Positions 3,714 to 13,667 of a stretch of DNA of 15,766 bases are shown here, piece after piece. Both the position numbers and the translations under genes were made by a program. Each line of letters begins with the position of its first letter. The stretch's first letter is position 1. The notes under the pieces are model-generated. The model saw nothing but the letters and a program-made list of their open reading frames with translations. It was not told the origin of the DNA and did no database searches. Source of the DNA: Chloroflexi bacterium UBA4733 (GTDB lineage Bacteria > Chloroflexota > UBA4733); assembly GCA_002404055.1 (NCBI GenBank), contig DHIZ01000032.1, positions 1 through 15,766 of the forward strand, written 5' to 3'.

Positions 3714-4090
3714 GGGGCATCTTGACAAAGATGGTACGCTGACGATGCGGTAGCTATTCCAACGCGGCACAATGCTTGCTGAAAAAGCAGACTGCGCCGT
3801 GCGAGAAGTGAAAAGGAAAACGATGGATCGCCAGAATACGAACCAGGATGGGTCCCGGACATCGGTTCGGGTAGCCGAAGCCGGGTCCGCTCTGGATCGC
3901 TTGGGCGTTACGTGGGATCCGCAGATTGAGTCGCTCCTTCGGGCCACGGACGAAGCACAGCGAATCAGCCAACAACTCCAGCGCGACGAGCGTATGACGC
4001 GAGCGCTGTTGTTCGGCGGCATACCGGTCGCTACACCGTAGTGCCAATCTGCCCGCCTGGCGCGGACGGGGCCCGGATTGCCATGGAAAT
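3714..4090. repeat. Repeat A, copy 1 (partner at 11856-12232)
   Basis: A roughly 377-base block matching 11856-12232 without visible gaps (constant offset 8142). It begins at a shared GGGGC upstream of the small gene and ends just after a shared CCATGGAAAT. Both copies carry TTGACA (3722-3727; 11864-11869) upstream of the gene, a good -35 hexamer, but no clear -10 at normal spacing. Confidence 0.92.
3823..4041 (+). CDS. Small orphan protein, duplicated (copy 1)
   Basis: Function unknown. The 72-residue product is hydrophilic and probably helical in its second half (from SALDRLGVT to ISQQLQRDERMTRALL), with no cysteines or membrane segment. ATG at 3823 has a good ribosome-binding site (AAAAGGAAAACG before it). 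An upstream in-frame ATG at 3772 would add 17 residues but lacks one. A paralogue at 11965 differs at few positions and has no frameshift, so the frame has probably been under selection. Its place among orphan antitoxins makes an antitoxin-like role possible, but no DNA-binding fold can be recognised. Confidence 0.65.
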   Translation: MDRQNTNQDGSRTSVRVAEAGSALDRLGVTWDPQIESLLRATDEAQRISQQLQRDERMTRALLFGGIPVATP

Positions 4091-4163
4091 GTCTGGCGTT
4101 GGCGCGAGAGGAGCGGTGATCGTAGTGCATGCAACGAGACTGACCTTGCCCCGTCGTGAGGCT

Positions 4164-6458: not shown

Positions 6459-6474
6459 GTATACTTGAGTATAC
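6459..6474. promoter_or_regulatory. Perfect palindrome, candidate operator
   Basis: GTATACTTGAGTATAC: two GTATAC hexamers, each self-palindromic, flanking TTGA. It sits 24 bases before the toxin ATG at 6498 and 23 bases from the divergent DUF6941-like start. Ribbon-helix-helix antitoxins commonly autoregulate by binding such symmetric sites at their operon promoter, so it may be bound by the product of 6782-7159. TATACA (6470-6475) could double as a -10 element. The decayed second copy near 10.8 kb lacks this site. Confidence 0.5.
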
Positions 6475-6497
6475 AGACTACCACGGAGTGGGGTACG

Positions 6498-6785
6498 ATG
6501 GACGTCTGGTCGATGGAGTGGCAATGGGATGAGGACAACCTTGCGGAATTGGCACGGCACAGGCTAGACCGGAAAACGGTTGAGCAAGTGACGGAAGAAC
6601 AGCCCCGGCTTCGGCGAAACAAGAAGGACCGAGCAGCGACACACATGATGATCGGACCTGATCGAGGTGGACGTCGATGGGTGGTGTGTATCGTCCAGGT
6701 ACGGGGACAGCCAGGACTCTGGCGCGCAATTACTGGCTGGCGAGCCGAACCGGAGGATGAAGAATGGTACAGGAGGAGTGCATGA
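6498..6785 (+). CDS. BrnT-like toxin
   Basis: Probable ribonuclease toxin of the BrnT/RelE-like fold, 95 residues, the usual BrnT length. It starts with the typical W-x-W-D-E-x-N-L-x-x-L-A-R-H pattern (WQWDEDNLAELARHR, about residues 8-22), then has IGPDRGGRRWVVCIV and a C-terminal GLWRAITGW ahead of an acidic tail ending YRRSA. ATG 6498 follows GGAG at nine bases. Its last bases overlap the antitoxin start (ATGA, 6782-6785), the standard toxin-first arrangement. Two ACCGGA hexamers, 6568-6573 and 6749-6754, flank the segment missing from the second copy near 10.8 kb. Activity is inferred from family. Confidence 0.8.
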   Translation: MDVWSMEWQWDEDNLAELARHRLDRKTVEQVTEEQPRLRRNKKDRAATHMMIGPDRGGRRWVVCIVQVRGQPGLWRAITGWRAEPEDEEWYRRSA

Positions 6786-7238
6786 GCGGTCAAGATCAAA
6801 CACCGGACGAAGTGCGCGAGATCTACGAGCACCGGCACGACCCAGGTGAGTGGAGCGAGGAGGCAGTTCCCGTTTCCGTTCGGCCAGCACGGACGTCCGT
6901 CGTCTCCTTCCGTCTGCCGGTTGAAGAGTTTGATGTCCTAGAGGCTGCAGCAAAAGCTGCAGGAGAGTCACTCTCTGAATACGTTCGCCGAGCCATCGAA
7001 GTCAGACGCGTCGGCAACCCGGTACCGACTGGGCTTCAAGTGAGTTCGCTGGGCGCAATGACGATGCAAGTAACGTCGTCGATGTCAGCGGCTTGGACGG
7101 AGACTCGTGCAACCGTGCTGCAGGACTTCCCAACGAATCTCAGCCCTGTCGGGAGATGAGATTGACCGAGCGCCTCTTCGGGTGATCACGGCCCATCCAA
7201 TTCGCCAGCACGTTCTTGAACGAATCCGCCGGGAGATA
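6534..7238. repeat. Repeat B, copy 1 (partner at 10766-11291)
   Basis: Most of the toxin gene, the whole ribbon-helix-helix gene and about 80 following bases match the partner. The partner lacks 181 bases of the toxin gene. From 6956 to 7172 (217 bases) the copies are identical base for base, while both flanks are clearly diverged. Confidence 0.93.
6782..7159 (+). CDS. Ribbon-helix-helix antitoxin paired with the BrnT-like toxin (copy 1)
   Basis: Predicted antitoxin and autorepressor, 125 residues. Residues about 38-75 form a ribbon-helix-helix: the strand TSVVSFRLP, then EEFDVLEAAAKAAGESLSEY and VRRAIEVRR. The N-terminal 35 residues are acidic and probably disordered, suited to wrapping the toxin. 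The tail after residue 80 resembles no known domain and is identical in the second copy. ATG 6782 has AGGAGG seven bases upstream and overlaps the toxin stop. Canonical BrnA has its DNA-binding domain near the C-terminus, so this is a BrnT partner of a different architecture. Confidence 0.85.
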   Translation: MSGQDQTPDEVREIYEHRHDPGEWSEEAVPVSVRPARTSVVSFRLPVEEFDVLEAAAKAAGESLSEYVRRAIEVRRVGNPVPTGLQVSSLGAMTMQVTSSMSAAWTETRATVLQDFPTNLSPVGR

Positions 7239-7277
7239 CAACCCTTATCCCCCCACACGTCCGCGGATCTCCGTTAG
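7107..7277 (+). other. Short conserved frame behind the antitoxin gene, extended form
   Basis: In the frame one base past the antitoxin frame, GTG 7107 opens a 56-codon reading frame containing ISALSGDEIDRA, LRVITAHP and LERIRREIQP. Compared with the second copy (11158-11298), most differences after 7172 fall on third codon positions and eight codons differ silently, the mark of a translated frame. Here it runs past the point where the partner stops (after QP) and ends at TAG 7275-7277, inside the end of the convergent gene. It may be a small overlapping gene or the relic C-terminus of a lost one. No family is recognised. Confidence 0.4.
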
Positions 7278-7769
7278 CCGCTCCCGCCAGTCGTCACGGA
7301 TAGGCTGCACGCTCAACTCCTCAATGAGCAACCACAACACGTCCTCCAGCGCGACCAGTGCGGTCGGCAGGTGACGCTGAGCGAAGCGTCGTCGGCGACT
7401 GTCAGCCAGCAACGCACTTCCAAGGTGCAGGTGCGCCAAGGTAGCCTGACTCCGCCACTCTGGATGCCAGTGGTACACGAGAAGTTCCCGCTCCTGTTCA
7501 TCCAGCACTTTGTACTCGTAGGCCGCGAGCTGCACTGCCCAGCCCCGTCTGGCCGAGTCCTGCGCCAGCCGATACTGGAGAACCATGCCGAAGTGCAGGG
7601 CGGCCGCGCCTTTGAGCGACACCGGATGCCCGCCGGCGATGGTCGCGGTCAGGATCTCCGCACGGCCAAACCTTTCCACTTGAGGGACGATTTGGGTGAC
7701 ACAAGAGAGCGCCAGGGAAATGTCAGCCTGAAACGCGGCGACGGCGGCGTGGGGGGTTCTAGCGTCCAA
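7245..7769 (-). CDS. Uncharacterised protein, larger partner of a small-gene pair (possible toxin)
   Basis: About 174 residues. The end, beginning RHLPTALVALEDVLWLLIE and continuing with a conserved-looking D-D-W, and the central YEYKVLDEQERELLVYHWHP recall, from memory, unnamed proteins encoded beside a small partner ending in a W-D-A-G-E-Y block. Function is unknown; it could be the toxin of an uncharacterised module. The longer frame to 7916 is misleading because it overlaps the upstream gene in another frame and its extra 49 residues are noise. The best start is TTG 7769, which overlaps the upstream stop; no good ribosome-binding site is seen, so translational coupling is likely. It is soluble, mostly helical, with no membrane segments. 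Confidence 0.65.
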   Translation of the reverse strand: MDARTPHAAVAAFQADISLALSCVTQIVPQVERFGRAEILTATIAGGHPVSLKGAAALHFGMVLQYRLAQDSARRGWAVQLAAYEYKVLDEQERELLVYHWHPEWRSQATLAHLHLGSALLADSRRRRFAQRHLPTALVALEDVLWLLIEELSVQPIRDDWRERLTEIRGRVGG

Positions 7770-7965
7770 ACGGCAGGAGCATCGCCACGGTCGAGACGCC
7801 CGGCACGTCCGCCTTGCCGACGTACTCGCCGGCATCCCAGCGCCGGATGAACTCCTCACCGCTGATGTCCAGGTGACGGCGCACTGCCCGATCGAAGAGT
7901 TGGTGTCCCTCCTCAACGGTCAATTCCTGCACACGGGAAGCCGTTTCCGGCGGCAGCACGGCCAT
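7759..7965 (-). CDS. Small uncharacterised protein, first gene of the pair (antitoxin-like)
   Basis: A 68-residue protein with LFDRAVRRHLDISGEEFIRR followed by WDAGEY and ending VAMLLPFGR. I recall this pattern from unnamed small proteins next to a larger partner like the downstream gene. ATG 7965 is preferred over ATG 7995 because AAGGAGG lies eight bases before it. Its stop overlaps the next gene's start by 11 bases, so the two form a tight operon. Size, order and overlap suit an antitoxin followed by its toxin, but no DNA-binding fold is evident. Confidence 0.72.
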   Translation of the reverse strand: MAVLPPETASRVQELTVEEGHQLFDRAVRRHLDISGEEFIRRWDAGEYVGKADVPGVSTVAMLLPFGR

Positions 7966-8238
7966 GGGGGTTTCCTCCTTGCGACGCGATGCCATGACGC
8001 ACCGGCATAATCATCGCACATTCGAGGCCCGCTGACCAGCGCCGCCATCGAGTTGGGTGCGTTGCAACGTTTTGACCGCTCGCTCGCCTGTCTCCTGGCG
8101 GCACGAACAGGGGCCGGAGGGCTTGGAAGGGAGGAGCGGTCCAGGCGGGTGGTTCTCGCGGCCGAAGGCGAACCAGTCGGGTACATGGTCGCTTTTCCGC
8201 CCGCCCCTCCCTTGACCTGAAGCACAAACACTGAAGTA
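7966..8238. other. Divergent intergenic region with no supported gene
   Basis: About 270 bases between the minus-strand pair and the promoter of the chimeric gene. The minus-strand leader with its strong ribosome-binding site lies at 7966-7990. Short minus-strand frames (8011-8247 and others) are basic and low-complexity and look like GC-rich noise. Confidence 0.5.
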
Positions 8239-8267
8239 TTGACCCAAGCGATGAATGTATGTACTAT
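8239..8267 (+). promoter_or_regulatory. Candidate promoter of the toxin-antitoxin chimera, possibly leaderless
   Basis: TTGACC (8239-8244) is followed after 17 bases by TACTAT (8262-8267), with TATACT overlapping at 8265-8270. Transcription would begin around 8274, at the ATG itself, and no ribosome-binding site precedes ATG 8271 or 8274. A leaderless mRNA is the simplest reading. Confidence 0.5.
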
Positions 8268-8273
8268 ACTATG

Positions 8274-8858
8274 ATGAGGTTTATTTGGAATGCTGAGACT
8301 ATTGGGCACATCGCCCGTCACGGCGTCTCACCACGAGAGGCGGAGGAAGTGGTCACGGCTGATGATTCGCGGATCCTTCCGGCACGCGGTCGCCCCTCGC
8401 ACCCCCACCAAGACCCAGACCTGGACTTTTATGAGCACCAGACGGAGGAAGAGATGGTCGCTGCTGTGGCGGCCGCAAGCAAGGCTGGAACGCTGCGGCG
8501 GGGCGGCGTGAAGGCTACCCTTACTGATCCGGCGGCGCTGGAGGCGCGCGTGGCTGCCGCTTTCGACCAGGACAGCGTGTTGGAAGCCCAGGCCGAACTG
8601 GAGGAAGCACGACAGGCCGGGCGCACTATCGAGCCGCTCATCCCCGTCACGATCCGGATGCCGGCAACTATGGTGGCGGCGCTCAAGGCCGAGGCGGAGC
8701 GCGAGGGTGTGCGCGGCTATCAAACCTTGCTCAAGCAATGGATCGAGGAGCGCCTCTCCGGCGAGAAAGTCGTCAGCGTTCGCCGGGTGGCCGCCGTCCT
8801 GAAGCCGCTCCAGCAGCGCCTCGAGGCCGAAGATGCACGACCGGCGGGCCGACGTTAG
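8274..8858 (+). CDS. BrnT N-terminus fused in frame to a BrnA/CopG-like antitoxin
   Basis: A 194-residue chimera. Residues 1 to about 40 are the start of a BrnT toxin (MRFIWNAETIGHIARHGVSP, then REAEEVV), which normally runs to about 90 residues. The toxin's later strands are missing. At about residue 41 (PSHPHQDPDLDFYE) the sequence becomes the antitoxin encoded intact at 11295-11786, including its C-terminal DNA-binding segment (IPVTIRMPATMVAALKAEAE, then GYQTLLKQWIEERL). Homology with that copy begins at 8395. The fusion is in frame and undamaged, so it probably makes a stable protein. It is likely non-toxic and may repress or neutralise related modules. ATGs at 8259 and 8271 are also in frame but overlap the promoter. 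Confidence 0.82.
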   Translation: MRFIWNAETIGHIARHGVSPREAEEVVTADDSRILPARGRPSHPHQDPDLDFYEHQTEEEMVAAVAAASKAGTLRRGGVKATLTDPAALEARVAAAFDQDSVLEAQAELEEARQAGRTIEPLIPVTIRMPATMVAALKAEAEREGVRGYQTLLKQWIEERLSGEKVVSVRRVAAVLKPLQQRLEAEDARPAGRR

Positions 8859-8887
8859 TCGCGGTCTGTCACGGTGCAATAGCCGAA
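8395..8887. repeat. Repeat C, copy 1 (partner at 11323-11815)
   Basis: Gap-free match to 11323-11815 (offset 2928), covering all but the first about 10 codons of the antitoxin and about 30 bases after its stop. Differences are scattered and mostly silent. The left boundary coincides with the fusion point of the chimera. Confidence 0.92.
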
Positions 8888-9322: not shown

Positions 9323-9631
9323 TTACGGCGTCTTCAGCGTGGCATAGCGGCGTTCGGCGAGCTGGTAGAAGTTTTCGTGGGGACCGACAGCAAAGACCCG
9401 GCAGAGCTTCGCGGTAACCTCAAGCCGGTAGGCGGCGCGATAGGCGCCACCCGGTAAGGAGAACTCCAGCGCCCGCGCCCCTTTGAGCGTGCCGGTCAGC
9501 ATATGGCCACGGAGCGGATCGTCGCGCAACGAAAAGATCGCTTCCATGACTTCGACCAGGTAGGTCTGCAGGTCGATGACGTCGCGCACTGCCGCCCGTG
9601 TCAATGTGACCCGATAGCGGTCAACGGGCAT
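9323..9631 (-). CDS. RelE/ParE-family toxin
   Basis: Probable ribosome-dependent mRNA interferase or gyrase-type toxin, 102 residues, normal family length. The second half is diagnostic: ALEFSLPGGAYRAAYR, then CRVFAVGPHENFYQLAERR near the C-terminus. The start is ATG 9631 (MPVDRYRVTLT), which overlaps the upstream antitoxin gene by 11 bases; the longer frame to 9664 adds only shadow sequence. Antitoxin-first order on the minus strand suits a relBE-like operon under one promoter. A helical N-terminal half (residues 8-40) precedes the conserved strands. Confidence 0.82.
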   Translation of the reverse strand: MPVDRYRVTLTRAAVRDVIDLQTYLVEVMEAIFSLRDDPLRGHMLTGTLKGARALEFSLPGGAYRAAYRLEVTAKLCRVFAVGPHENFYQLAERRYATLKTP

Positions 9632-9911
9632 CGGCAACGTCGCCGGCCTGCAGCACGAGCTCACTCACCAGACGCTCCTGCTGCGCAACGGATAGCCTGG
9701 TCGGCAAGCCATCAGGATCGAGTCCAGCCGCACGAACGATCGCCTCCAGATCCACCTCATCGAGGGGGTTGATCGCCTTGGCCGCGTGGAGTACCGGACC
9801 AGTCGCACTCTGTTCCTGCACCACGAAGAGGACGTCCCCCGGCTTCAGGCCCTGCCGTGCCTCGAAGGGAATGGTGATACGGTAGCGGTCGTCAATCGTC
9901 GCTGTCGGCAT
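9621..9911 (-). CDS. AbrB/MazE-type antitoxin (SpoVT-AbrB domain)
   Basis: Predicted swapped-hairpin DNA-binding antitoxin of the adjacent RelE-like toxin, 96 residues. The N-terminal MPTATIDDRYRITIPFEAR followed by GLKPGDVLFVV is the classic SpoVT-AbrB core. The C-terminal half (DEVDLEAIVRAAGLDPDGL onward) is probably the toxin-binding segment. ATG 9911 follows AAGGAG; a longer frame reaching 10109 has no such site and begins with unconserved, Cys- and Arg-rich sequence. Just upstream are a TATACT and a perfect small palindrome suited to autoregulation. Confidence 0.88.
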   Translation of the reverse strand: MPTATIDDRYRITIPFEARQGLKPGDVLFVVQEQSATGPVLHAAKAINPLDEVDLEAIVRAAGLDPDGLPTRLSVAQQERLVSELVLQAGDVADAR

Positions 9912-9935
9912 TCGCCTCTCCTTGTTACCCATTGA

Positions 9936-10626: not shown

Positions 10627-10765
10627 CACTCGGCAGGGGCATCTTATCACGGACCTGGCATACCGAAGCGCACCAGGCTTCCTGCATAAGCTGGCGGTGG
10701 GGTTGCACTGACGGTACCAGCACCCAGATGGTACCCGCTGGTTTAGCCAGCGGTCTGTGTTGGGG

Positions 10766-10836
10766 GACACCTTTACAGAATTGGCCCGGCACAGGGTAAG
10801 CCGGAGGCCGAGGAGGGGTATAGGAGGAGTTCATGA
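10766..10836 (+). pseudogene. BrnT-like toxin remnant with internal 181-bp deletion
   Basis: The toxin gene of repeat B copy 2 keeps only its ends. Near 10780-10795 it encodes ELARHR, as in the intact toxin, then after a CCGGA junction a different frame gives EAEEGYRRSS and a stop overlapping the antitoxin ATG, corresponding to the intact EPEDEEWYRRSA ending. The intact gene has ACCGGA at 6568 and 6749, exactly 181 bases apart, and the junction carries one such copy (GCCGGA). The deletion shifts the frame, so no toxin can be made. The ribosome-binding site of the antitoxin gene is preserved. Confidence 0.85.
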
Positions 10837-11210
10837 GCGGTCAAGATCAAACACCGGACGAAGTGCGCGAGACCTACGAGCATCGGCACGACCCAGGTGA
10901 GTGGAGCGAGGAGGCTGTACCTGTCTCTGTTCGACCAGCACGGACGTCCGTCGTCTCCGTCCGTCTGCCGATTGAAGAGTTTGATGTGCTGGAGGCTGCA
11001 GCAAACGCTGCAGGAGAGTCACTCTCTGAATACGTTCGCCGAGCCATCGAAGTCAGACGCGTCGGCAACCCGGTACCGACTGGGCTTCAAGTGAGTTCGC
11101 TGGGCGCAATGACGATGCAAGTAACGTCGTCGATGTCAGCGGCTTGGACGGAGACTCGTGCAACCGTGCTGCAGGACTTCCCAACGAATCTCAGCCCTGT
11201 CGGGAGATGA
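10833..11210 (+). CDS. Ribbon-helix-helix antitoxin (copy 2), orphan
   Basis: Same 125-residue length as the copy at 6782, with only a handful of substitutions, all in the first 60 residues (for example SVRLPIEEF for SFRLPVEEF). The DNA-binding core (about 38-75) is kept and the C-terminal half is identical. TAGGAGGAG precedes the ATG. Its own toxin gene is deleted, so it is an orphan antitoxin that could still repress the copy-1 operon or neutralise its toxin. The intact frame suggests it is expressed, though the copy-1 operator palindrome is missing upstream. Confidence 0.85.
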   Translation: MSGQDQTPDEVRETYEHRHDPGEWSEEAVPVSVRPARTSVVSVRLPIEEFDVLEAAANAAGESLSEYVRRAIEVRRVGNPVPTGLQVSSLGAMTMQVTSSMSAAWTETRATVLQDFPTNLSPVGR

Positions 11211-11298
11211 GATTGACCGAGCGTCGCTTCGTGTAATCACGGCCTATCCAATTCGCCCGCACGCTCTTGAGCGCATACGTGAGGAGGTGCAGCCATGA
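11158..11298 (+). other. Short conserved frame behind the antitoxin gene, ending at the next start codon
   Basis: GTG 11158 opens a 46-codon frame (…ISALSGDEIDRASLRVITAY, then HALERIREEVQP) ending in TGA 11296-11298, which overlaps the following antitoxin's ATG (11295) in the ATGA manner of coupled genes. It overlaps the end of the ribbon-helix-helix gene in another frame. Differences from copy 1 after 11223 are mainly silent in this frame. It may be a real small gene or the tail of a lost toxin that once preceded the 11295 antitoxin. The start is a guess. Confidence 0.45.
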
Positions 11299-11786
11299 CC
11301 GCCGCCCGAGAAAACACTCTGTCCTCGCATGCCCATCAAGACCCGGATCTGGACTTTTATGAGCGCCAGACGGAGGAAGAGATGGTCGCTGCTGTGGCGG
11401 CCGCAAGCAAGGCCGGAACGCTGCGGCGGGGCGGCGTGAAGGCTACCCTGACTGATCCGGCGGCGCTGGAGGCGCGCGTGGCCGCTGCCTTCGACCAGGA
11501 CAGCGTGTTGGAAGCCCAGGCTGAGCTGGAGGAAGCGCGACAGGCCGGTCATCCCATTGAACCGCTCATCCCCGTCACGATCCGGATGCCGGTAACTATG
11601 GTGGCCGCGCTCAAGGCCGAGGCGGAGCGCGAGGGTGTGCGCGGCTATCAAACCTTGCTCAAGCAATGGATCGAGGAGCGCCTCTCCGGCGAGAAAGTCG
11701 TCAGCGTGCATCGGGTGGCCGCCGTTCTGCAGCCGCTCCAGCATCTCCTCGCGGACGATGACGTACGACCGGAAGGCCGGCCCTAG
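11295..11786 (+). CDS. BrnA/CopG-like antitoxin, intact copy, orphan
   Basis: A 163-residue predicted antitoxin. The N-terminal 45 residues (HQDPDLDFYERQTEEEMVAA) are acidic and likely contact a toxin. The middle is helical and Ala/Glu-rich. Residues about 91-130 (IEPLIPVTIRMP, MVAALKAEAEREGV, GYQTLLKQWIEERL) are the BrnA/CopG-type DNA-binding region. ATG 11295 has GAGGAGGTG seven bases upstream. No toxin gene is adjacent: upstream is the ribbon-helix-helix antitoxin and a short frame. It is the reference for the fused copy at 8274, which shares everything from residue 11 on. Confidence 0.82.
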   Translation: MTAARENTLSSHAHQDPDLDFYERQTEEEMVAAVAAASKAGTLRRGGVKATLTDPAALEARVAAAFDQDSVLEAQAELEEARQAGHPIEPLIPVTIRMPVTMVAALKAEAEREGVRGYQTLLKQWIEERLSGEKVVSVHRVAAVLQPLQHLLADDDVRPEGRP

Positions 11787-11815
11787 TCGCGGGCCGTCCC
11801 GTTGCCATAGCGCGG
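11323..11815. repeat. Repeat C, copy 2 (partner at 8395-8887)
   Basis: Second copy of the antitoxin block. Only the first about ten codons differ completely from copy 1, where the toxin fragment is attached instead. The match extends about 30 bases past the TAG stop. Confidence 0.92.
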
Positions 11816-11855: not shown

Positions 11856-12232
11856 GGGGCGTCTTGACACAGGTGGCACGCTGACGATGCGGTAGTTATT
11901 CCAACGCGGCACAATGCTTGCTGAAAAAGCAGACTGCGCCGTGCGAGCAATGAATAGGAAAACGATGGATCGCCAGAATACGAACCAGGAGGGGTCCCGG
12001 ACACCGGTTCGGGGAGCCGAAGCCGGGTCCGCTCTGCAGCGCTTGGGCGTTACGCGGGATCCGCAGATCGAGTCGCTCCTTCGGGCCACGGACGAAGCAC
12101 AGCGAATCAGCCAACAGGTCCAGCGCGACGAGAGTATGACGCGAGCGCTGTTGTTCGGCGGCATAGCGGTTGCTACACCGTAGCGCCAATCTGCCCGCCT
12201 GGCGCGGCCGGGGTCCGGATGGCCATGGAAAT
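11856..12232. repeat. Repeat A, copy 2 (partner at 3714-4090)
   Basis: Gap-free second copy of the small-gene block, about 40 bases after repeat C ends. The right edge falls after CCATGGAAAT, where the two copies become unrelated. Confidence 0.92.
11965..12183 (+). CDS. Small orphan protein, duplicated (copy 2)
   Basis: Paralogue of the gene at 3823 with the same 72-residue length from ATG 11965. It differs at about ten residues and has no gap. TAGGAAAACG precedes the ATG, matching the ribosome-binding site of copy 1. Conservation is strongest in the helical half (DPQIESLLRATDEAQRISQQ). Function is unknown. It lies downstream of two orphan antitoxins in the same orientation and might be co-transcribed with them, although TTGACA at 11864 suggests its own promoter. 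Confidence 0.65.
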   Translation: MDRQNTNQEGSRTPVRGAEAGSALQRLGVTRDPQIESLLRATDEAQRISQQVQRDESMTRALLFGGIAVATP

Positions 12233-12402
12233 ATCCAGGCTTTCAAAGAGCTTGATGTTGCCTGAAGTCCGCATCACCCTGAAATTGCCGTATGATGCGC
12301 GAATGGCAAGGAACCAATTGGGCCAGGGAGGCCGTAGGACATGGCGCAGGGCGAGCAAAAAGGCGGAATCGGAAAGAAGGGAACCTCAATGCGCCTGAAG
12401 GA

Positions 12403-12771
12403 TCAGACCTTTTTGGATCCCCACCGTTGGTGGCTCGGATCGGTTTCCGGCAAAACGGTGCGGAGGGTCGATTGTCCGCCCGTCGACGCTGTCTGAGTCG
12501 CTATGCCCGCCGACACTGGCGCACGAACTGCGGTTGTCGCCAGGGCACGACTTTGCTCGGCCAACCTTGTGCTGAGTTCGTCCCGCTCCAACACGCCATC
12601 GGTGAAGGTAGCGATATCGCTCGCGATGGCATACGCTGCTTCGACCAACTCCTTATCGCCTGTGCCCTCCACTTCGCCCAGAACATGGACGGCGAACCAG
12701 CGATCGAAGTCGCGCAGTGTCGAATGGCCGCTCGCGACGCTCGCGAGCCGGGCGCTGAGGTCACGCCGCAT
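12403..12771 (-). CDS. Small uncharacterised helical protein
   Basis: About 122 residues from ATG 12771 (a TTG at 12786 is possible). The core LRDFDRWFAVHVLGEVEGTG followed by a helix (ELVEAAYAIASDIATFTDG) and ELSTRLAEQSRAL recalls, from memory, a loosely defined group of short proteins with an L-x-x-F-x-x-W-F signature and a C-terminal helix of E-L-x-x-x-L type. Function unknown. The last 30 residues are Thr- and Ser-rich and look disordered. Its start codon overlaps that of the divergent gene on the other strand. The ribosome-binding site is weak. Confidence 0.55.
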   Translation of the reverse strand: MRRDLSARLASVASGHSTLRDFDRWFAVHVLGEVEGTGDKELVEAAYAIASDIATFTDGVLERDELSTRLAEQSRALATTAVRAPVSAGIATQTASTGGQSTLRTVLPETDPSHQRWGSKKV

Positions 12772-13144
12772 GTCCACGCCTGACAAACCTTTCGACTATC
12801 TCGACCCCACGGTATTGAGGCGACTCTTTAACGACCAGCAGATACCGGAGAAGGCCATCGCCGGAGATCTCAGGGAAGAAATCCGGCCACAAACGCATCT
12901 CAGCGCTCACCGCCGTGCTCGCTTGACCATTCGGGGGAGGCAAGCCCAAGCGTGTACCCACACGTGTATCGTGACATATTTGGACTGGTACGGCAAGCCC
13001 GTCGCCATTTGTCACTGTTACTGGCGACGCGAAAAGTTCCTCACCAGGCCCGACCCAAAGTGGATGGACATCGATGGGCACATCTATCGGGATGATCCTG
13101 AAGCGAAAAGCGAGCCGTGGCCTCTGGACGAAGGGGCGTCGTGA
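12770..13144 (+). CDS. Uncharacterised 124-residue protein
   Basis: The family is not recognised. ATG 12770 has GAGGT nine bases upstream; the longer frame back to 12503 is a shadow of the minus-strand gene. The product begins MSTPDKPFDYLDPTVLRRLF, has a basic central stretch, then CTHTCIVTYLDWYGKPVAI and CHCYWRREKF with four cysteines and nearby histidines that could bind a metal, and an acidic tail with KWMDIDGHIYRDDPE. It is soluble. The opposite strand is also open here, but its sequence is less protein-like. It starts back to back with the minus-strand gene, sharing CATG at 12769-12772. Confidence 0.6.
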   Translation: MSTPDKPFDYLDPTVLRRLFNDQQIPEKAIAGDLREEIRPQTHLSAHRRARLTIRGRQAQACTHTCIVTYLDWYGKPVAICHCYWRREKFLTRPDPKWMDIDGHIYRDDPEAKSEPWPLDEGAS

Positions 13145-13189
13145 CCTCACATCATGGTTGTGTTGCGAGGGGAGACACGCTATGGTCAA

Positions 13190-13217
13190 AGTCGTGACGG
13201 TGCGGAGGAAGCCGCAG
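13190..13217. repeat. 28-base direct repeat, copy 1 (partner at 13600-13627)
   Basis: AGTCGTGACGGTGCGG continues to a 28-base block repeated at 13600-13627 with two substitutions. The two copies bracket the methyltransferase fragment, 410 bases apart. This copy ends at a GTG start codon and provides its GGAGG. Confidence 0.75.
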
Positions 13218-13324
13218 TGAGCAGTAATTTGCTGGACCGCCTGCCGTTCAACTTGCCCATCTTCTCCGCACTCGGCCAAGCCATCGCTGGCCACCCGCTC
13301 CTGCTCGTTGCCGCCGGGCCGTGA
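13217..13324 (+). CDS. 35-codon ORF, possibly the truncated start of an ATPase-like gene
   Basis: GTG 13217 follows GGAGG at eight bases. The frame encodes LLDRLPFNLPIFSALGQAIA then GHPLLLVAAGP and stops. The hydrophobic strand ending in A-A-G-P resembles the run-up to a Walker A loop (…V-x-G-x-x-G-x-G-K-T), as though a nucleotide-binding gene were cut off there. It stops where unrelated sequence leading into the methyltransferase fragment begins. It may equally be chance. Confidence 0.3.
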   Translation: MSSNLLDRLPFNLPIFSALGQAIAGHPLLLVAAGP

Positions 13325-13372
13325 ACACCTGAGTAGCAACCTCACGTCACGACGCTTGCGCGAATGTGCGCG

Positions 13373-13447
13373 GGCCTTGCCGACCTCGCAGCGCCCCTGC
13401 CAGATGAGCTGGGGCTTGCGTTGCTCGGGGATGTAGCTCTCGGGCAT
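13373..13447 (-). pseudogene. Methyltransferase N-terminal fragment
   Basis: The minus strand from ATG 13447 encodes MPESYIPEQRKPQLIWQGRC, nearly identical to the first 20 residues of the protein at 96-2177, then leaves homology after about 25 codons. The frame continues to 12761 only by chance, as a shadow of the plus-strand gene. The start region with GGAG is retained, so a useless leader peptide could still be made. Confidence 0.88.
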
Positions 13448-13508
13448 GGCGACTCCGTTTAGCGAACGGCTTACCTACCGATCTGCTGTGCAGGGTAGCA
13501 TACAGTGT
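13373..13508. repeat. Methyltransferase 5' end and promoter, copy 2 (partner at 2103-2238)
   Basis: Same orientation as the intact locus. Beyond the start codon the upstream match includes a shared GTAGCATAC (TATGCTAC in minus-strand sense). Because the promoter was copied with the gene start, this site may still fire leftward into the 12.8-13.4 kb region, antisense to the gene at 12770. Confidence 0.85.
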
Positions 13509-13667
13509 GATAGCGTTTAAATCGGTCCACGCTGGAGTGGCATTGCATCACAGATGAAGGCTCGGTTACCAGCGACGCAGTATCATCGTGGACTGATTTA
13601 GTCGTGACGGTGCGGGGGAAGCCCCAGCCATGCATTCGCTGTTGTCCGATGCGAGGAGAGGCATCGG
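13509..13667. other. Leader region of the 13668 gene
   Basis: The region between the copied methyltransferase promoter and the next gene contains the second 28-base repeat (13600-13627), then GAGGAGAGG about seven bases before ATG 13668. No confident promoter hexamers for the plus strand were found. Confidence 0.4.
13600..13627. repeat. 28-base direct repeat, copy 2 (partner at 13190-13217)
   Basis: Second copy, with GGGGGAAGCCCCAG replacing GGAGGAAGCCGCAG at its end. It lies about 40 bases before the gene at 13668, so the original repeat may have been a gene leader. Confidence 0.75.

Follow-up and report, generated by a model that had tools for sequence, protein, structure and literature searches.

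How a gene that begins as a BrnT toxin and ends as an antitoxin came about, and what its product may still do, is the question raised by one locus of Chloroflexi bacterium UBA4733 (assembly GCA_002404055.1). The window, meaning the whole stretch of DNA analysed, comprises the 15,766 nt of contig DHIZ01000032.1. The locus encodes a chimera in which the N-terminal part of a BrnT-like toxin is joined in frame to a ribbon–helix–helix (RHH)/CopG-type antitoxin. We read the chimera as a decayed brnTA-type operon (probability about 0.78), that is, a toxin-inactivated module from which the antitoxin, a putative repressor, would still be made with a vestigial tail. Its parts, together with a separate antitoxin copy used throughout for comparison, are as follows.

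8259–8858, + strand: chimeric open reading frame (ORF), BrnT N-terminus and RHH/CopG-type antitoxin in frame (ORF calls, protein search, tblastn)
8259–8393, + strand: BrnT residues 1–45, equivalent to β1-α1-α2-β2 in the model of the intact relative P0033 (tblastn of P0033, P0034 and P0031; P0033 model)
8394–8401, + strand: fusion junction (base-by-base comparison)
8395–8858, + strand: antitoxin-derived segment of the chimera, beginning near antitoxin codon 11 (DNA and protein comparison)
11295–11786, + strand: separate intact antitoxin of 163 aa, copy II (ORF list, relatives, tblastn)

Architecture of the chimeric reading frame

The frame runs without interruption from the ATG at 8259 to the stop codon at 8856–8858 and encodes 199 residues; alternative ATG starts at 8271 and 8274 would give proteins of 195 and 194 residues. 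A database protein of 195 residues (P0001) is 100% identical to the chimera and corresponds to the start at 8271. A preliminary description of this locus reported a BrnT piece fused in frame to an antitoxin, free of stops and frameshifts, and a separate, intact antitoxin at 11295. Each of these features is borne out: comparison with relatives and tblastn put the BrnT piece at 45 residues, all 199 codons are open from 8259, and the antitoxin at 11295 has the same length as several relatives. At the junction lies a heptamer, CCTCGCA (8395–8401), that is also found in copy II at 11323–11329. An in-frame ATG within the chimera, at 8454, is preceded by GGAGG, and the same sequence is present in copy II; such an internal start could yield an antitoxin that lacks the tail.

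The toxin-derived segment

The first 45 residues of the chimera are identical to those of intact BrnT-like proteins at 39 (P0033), 38 (P0031), 36 (P0034) and 26 (P0035) positions, and a tblastn search of the window with P0033 matches this segment with an E-value of 2.4e-24. The Pfam BrnT_toxin profile (PF04365) scores the chimera at only 10.5 bits (E 0.78; cut-off 34.5), so the identity of the segment is established by these close relatives instead. The segment contains four of the eight secondary-structure elements modelled for P0033 and lacks β3–β5, three of the five strands, as well as the last helix. A complete BrnT/RelE-like fold is thus absent from the chimera, in which 45 of 93 toxin residues are present. 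For Aave_1720, K17, H18, F29 and E86 are given as residues required for activity (PMC10714953). Arg20 and His21 of the chimera probably correspond to K17 and H18; the C-terminal part expected to hold the glutamate is missing from the chimera by tblastn.

In the predicted model of P0001, residues 1–47 have predicted local distance difference test (pLDDT) values below 50, with the tail at ~40, based on an alignment of 26 rows that includes three BrnTs and samples the tail poorly. From residue 51 onward, ten-residue blocks average 51 to 84, and the predicted template-modelling (TM) score, pTM, is 0.29. The monomer model places helices at the RHH region, where the strand is not modelled. The idea that the toxin piece serves as a built-in decoy or dimerization element receives no positive support from a segment that keeps half of the modelled elements and has such low pLDDT values in the chimera.

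The antitoxin part

Positions 8395–8883 and the DNA at copy II (positions 11323–11811) are 90.8% identical over 489 bp. Comparison of all 150 coding codons from HQDPD onward identifies 33 that differ, 19 of them synonymously, with nonsynonymous (dN) and synonymous (dS) divergences of 0.043 and 0.245 (NG86). Within the first 130 codons the differences are mostly synonymous (16 of 21; dN 0.017, dS 0.224). The RHH stretch of the chimera is identical to that of the relatives P0003 and P0005. Over antitoxin positions 11–162, the chimera and copy II differ at 14 amino acids. Four of the chimera's residues at these positions (P13, R151, E155 and A157), all outside the RHH stretch, are unseen in P0002–P0006, and the same is true of five copy II residues (V100, H139, A153, D154 and E160), one of which lies inside it. 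By these comparisons the antitoxin part of the chimera appears about as well preserved as copy II. Family profiles score the chimera below their cut-offs (PF12441, 20 versus 28 bits; PF14384, 14 versus 26.1; NF047399, 33.9 versus 60; RHH_1, 13.3 versus 20.5), and copy II scores 21.5 with PF12441 and 34.2 with NF047399, PF14384 not being listed for it.

Intact relatives form ordinary brnTA-type pairs

A protein search with the chimera scored 6783 candidates, of which 32 matched at E ≤ 0.001. Of the 22 matches inspected, 18 read as antitoxins not preceded by any toxin segment; the others are P0001, P0019, P0031, a BrnT whose start has been called further upstream, and P0032, which matches only through its RHH end. 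The BrnT part of P0031 in turn retrieves five of 20 candidates: P0031 itself, P0033, P0034, P0035 and the chimera. The intact toxin is 93 residues long in P0033, P0034 and the BrnT part of P0031. At one locus, L001, on a contig of a Chloroflexi metagenome-assembled genome, a BrnT-like gene (7760–8041) overlaps an RHH-type antitoxin gene (8025–8426). In three further cases a toxin relative and an antitoxin relative are probably neighbouring genes, since the longest contigs recorded for the two have the same length (P0033/P0003, 1476 bp; P0034/P0006, 1239 bp; P0035/P0014, 13449 bp).

The model of P0033 (pLDDT 89.8) contains eight secondary-structure elements, and its best structural match is the solved BrnT structure 3u97 (E 5.1e-5, TM 0.68/0.80); a sequence search of the PDB with P0033 gave one chance match only (E 2.1). 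By the curated PF04365 cut-off the intact relatives are borderline, with scores of 36.4 (P0034), 34.5 (L001 BrnT), 33.7 (P0033), 33.6 (P0035) and 32.8 bits (P0031). Together, the overlapping genes of L001, the probable neighbour pairs and the fold match of P0033 indicate that the starting state is an ordinary brnTA-type pair. The antitoxin directly follows BrnT in L001 and probably does so in the three further pairs, and a BrnT remnant precedes copy II. The antitoxin of the chimera has no separate gene.

A single internal deletion would account for the fusion

Two further pieces of BrnT are found in the window.

11206–11295, + strand: BrnT C-terminal remnant, residues 64–93, whose stop codon overlaps the start of copy II (ATGA, 11295–11298) (tblastn, sequence)
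7155–7244, + strand: second BrnT C-terminal remnant, residues 64–93, with no antitoxin directly after it (tblastn)

These remnants, which the preliminary description did not mention, show that this BrnT family has been broken up within the window. By tblastn, BrnT residues 46–63 are found nowhere in the window, nor is any intact close relative of the chimera's BrnT. Relative to an intact pair, the chimera lacks BrnT residues 46–93 and approximately the first 10 codons of the antitoxin. Loss of a single internal stretch, reaching from BrnT codon 46 to approximately antitoxin codon 10, would explain this arrangement; it would have removed ~170 bp, a size derived from the length of P0033 and the overlap at copy II, and may have been mediated by short homology. 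Such a deletion would have inactivated the toxin and set the antitoxin in frame behind the toxin start. In both L001 and copy II the antitoxin frame differs from the BrnT frame, so that one in three random deletions would bring the two into frame. The in-frame outcome would also be favoured by selection for a working antitoxin. The deletion would have removed the antitoxin's own start as well, and an in-frame product is therefore the simplest way still to make the whole remaining antitoxin. The old brnTA promoter would now drive synthesis of the antitoxin in a tailed form that probably still dimerizes through its RHH domain and represses brnTA-type promoters, and that may neutralize a cognate BrnT encoded elsewhere. 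The toxin piece would then be a vestigial tail.

A candidate for the old promoter lies at the start of the frame.

8239–8267, + strand: promoter-like site TTGACC-17-TACTAT, the second hexamer overlapping the codons after ATG 8259 (consensus scan)

This is the only such site between 8000 and 9100, where shuffled sequences contain a mean of 0.3 (sd 0.5). The sequence ahead of the intact pair in L001 aligns with it in part (TATTGA, then TATGTAC), a comparison of two sequences only. The promoter-like sequence that had been described as the chimera's own is therefore present, but is more likely an inherited brnTA promoter; on account of the same partial alignment, a promoter newly gained by the chimera is rejected. 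If the site is used, its spacing suggests a transcript that starts at ~8274 and is leaderless or nearly so.

Recurrence of the junction

The preliminary description proposed that recurrence of the junction in other genomes would support a function, and regarded its confinement to this assembly as counter-evidence. The junction is found in one protein cluster only, P0001, whose eight members on three contigs (the longest 2690 bp) may include the window itself and cannot be converted into a count of independent samples. Its occurrence there speaks against confinement to this assembly, but nothing more distant carries it: a search with residues 1–60 returned two proteins of five candidates at E ≤ 10, with the junction in P0001 only. 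The cluster argues against misassembly, which is rejected on the grounds that P0001 lies on other contigs; long-term maintenance of the fusion does not follow from it. One other database protein, P0019 (179 aa, on a 1359-bp contig), starts like the antitoxin at 11295 and then continues in another frame of DNA of the same type, with an end that resembles that of the chimera rather than that of copy II. Judged by eye, P0019 is a frameshifted mosaic of the copies, formed by recombination or in assembly.

Genome contigs searched with the chimera protein alone gave 411 pattern-matching stretches and no relative; the antitoxin alignment gave 594 stretches, which include at least one locus, L001. Viral contigs yielded no relative of the chimera or its family and no exact match to the junction DNA, plasmids and phages yielded no relative of the chimera or its family by tblastn, and plasmids show no megablast match to the whole window. 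Among 400 genomes from the phylum of L001's genome, with at most nine candidates scored per genome, seven have an antitoxin match at E ≤ 1e-5 among the matches listed, and the match is strong only in L001's own genome. The class-level search for BrnT covered L001's genome only.

Other toxin–antitoxin genes and repeats in the window

Upstream of the chimera, at 6465–7159 (+ strand), a divergent BrnT-like toxin (PF04365, 25 bits, cut-off 34.5) overlaps an RHH protein, whose NikA-like match scores 30.6 bits (above the cut-off of 27); this looks like a complete second BrnT-like/RHH pair. Its RHH gene has a copy at 10765–11210 (+ strand; 94% identity between 10801–11279 and 6750–7228) from which the toxin is mostly deleted, no more than short segments of its ORF being left upstream (10765–10805 matches 6533–6573). 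A further toxin–antitoxin (TA)-like pair at 9323–9914 (− strand) consists of a ParE-like toxin (PF15781, 40.3 bits, above the cut-off) preceded by a MazE/AbrB-like protein that scores below the cut-off.

The window also contains a 380-bp direct repeat (3714–4093 and 11856–12235, 93% identical) whose two 89-aa ORFs match nothing in Pfam at E 0.01. The second repeat lies closely 3′ of the antitoxin and the first lies apart, indicating that the island has been rearranged. The start of a DNA methylase gene (96–2177, − strand; PF01555) is repeated as well, with 84% identity between 2103–2244 and 13373–13513; the second repeat lies at the start of an ORF at 12761–13447 (− strand) with no Pfam match at E 0.01.

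Decay, retained function or artefact

Where a chimeric frame is open but its family is represented nearby by broken copies, decay is a more economical reading than new design. Several observations weigh against it. The toxin piece retains 24 of the 25 positions that are invariant in the four intact BrnTs, and its divergence from P0033, P0034 and P0031 (36–39 of 45 residues identical) is about the same as theirs from one another (37–42 of 45). A piece so well preserved reflects either a young fusion or constraint on the piece itself. The ends of the deletion and its size rest on protein relatives and copy II rather than on the DNA of a close intact operon. The low dN/dS of the antitoxin part can predate the fusion, selection having acted before or after it, and in the last 20 codons only three of 12 differing codons are synonymous and nine are nonsynonymous (dN 0.243, dS 0.383). 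Selection on the toxin tail is neither shown nor excluded. The proposal that the protein is a repressor freed from toxin control holds in so far as a broken toxin goes together with an intact antitoxin part, with repression itself putative.

The conserved toxin positions would also suit a retained functional hybrid, in which the BrnT helices fold onto the toxin-binding segment of the antitoxin or alter dimer or tetramer assembly, as would the open frame, the promoter-like site and the database cluster of eight proteins. We consider such a hybrid unlikely, given that the junction is confined to one 90%-identity cluster, that the tail is modelled with very low confidence (from few BrnT rows) and that broken copies lie nearby. 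A more specific version, in which the deletion created a new regulator with the 45-residue BrnT helical tail on the antitoxin's toxin-binding face and brnTA-type repression blind to the toxin:antitoxin ratio, is quite doubtful; if true, this regulator would be retained for its constitutive repression and for an anti-addiction effect against intact brnTA copies. It is very unlikely that the whole chimera is a non-functional pseudogene, debris of the TA island in which the antitoxin part has yet to decay. The partial copies in the window (the two BrnT remnants and the toxin-deleted copy of the second BrnT-like/RHH pair) and the mostly nonsynonymous changes of the last 20 codons fit that description, but the antitoxin frame is intact, differences in the first 130 codons are mostly synonymous and the RHH stretch matches those of P0003 and P0005 exactly. 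An assembly artefact joining repeats is hardly credible. The junction does lie at the start of the antitoxin repeat (8395/11323), and P0019, which looks like a mosaic, implies that recombination or mis-joining between copies can happen; against this, none of the three P0001 contigs is as long as the window, the antitoxin copies are 9% different, and the window contains the BrnT N-terminus only once, leaving no other copy to mis-join from.

If the chimera is a decayed operon, it offers a snapshot of how a TA pair can lose its toxin while the antitoxin stays translatable, through one in-frame deletion that would use the toxin's promoter and start. Were the tail to prove functional, it would exemplify how part of a toxin can be reused for regulation.

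Comparison with known systems

The preliminary description knew of no named family with this architecture, which is incorrect in the wider sense: PMC11980606 (mBio 2025) reports fused BrnT-BrnA modules, 28 prokaryotic and four eukaryotic in its Table 2 and 33 in the text, any of which might or might not share the same truncation. As described, these modules resemble the chimera in having the toxin N-terminal and an RHH antitoxin C-terminal in one reading frame. They differ, in a comparison of descriptions rather than sequences, in that roughly half of the toxin fold is all that the chimera retains. Such a module would have its antitoxin linked to an entire toxin domain; the chimera has BrnT residues 1–45 only, and a complete single-chain TA fusion is rejected since half of the toxin is missing. 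The bicistronic brnTA of Brucella abortus, as presented in the same source, shares the toxin-first order and the RHH antitoxin, and BrnT 3u97 shares the fold of the intact relative P0033; in the chimera, however, the toxin is truncated and the antitoxin's own start is lost.

Orphan antitoxins, left over when type II TA systems degrade, are reviewed in PMC7354431, with anti-addiction as their proposed role. Like them, the chimera contains an intact antitoxin with no working cognate toxin beside it; unlike them, as they are described there, it carries a fused toxin fragment. Among the open-licence papers listed, titles and abstract openings describe no orphan antitoxin that bears a tail of toxin origin. 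The chimera is such a protein, and sits between the fused BrnT-BrnA modules and the orphan antitoxins.
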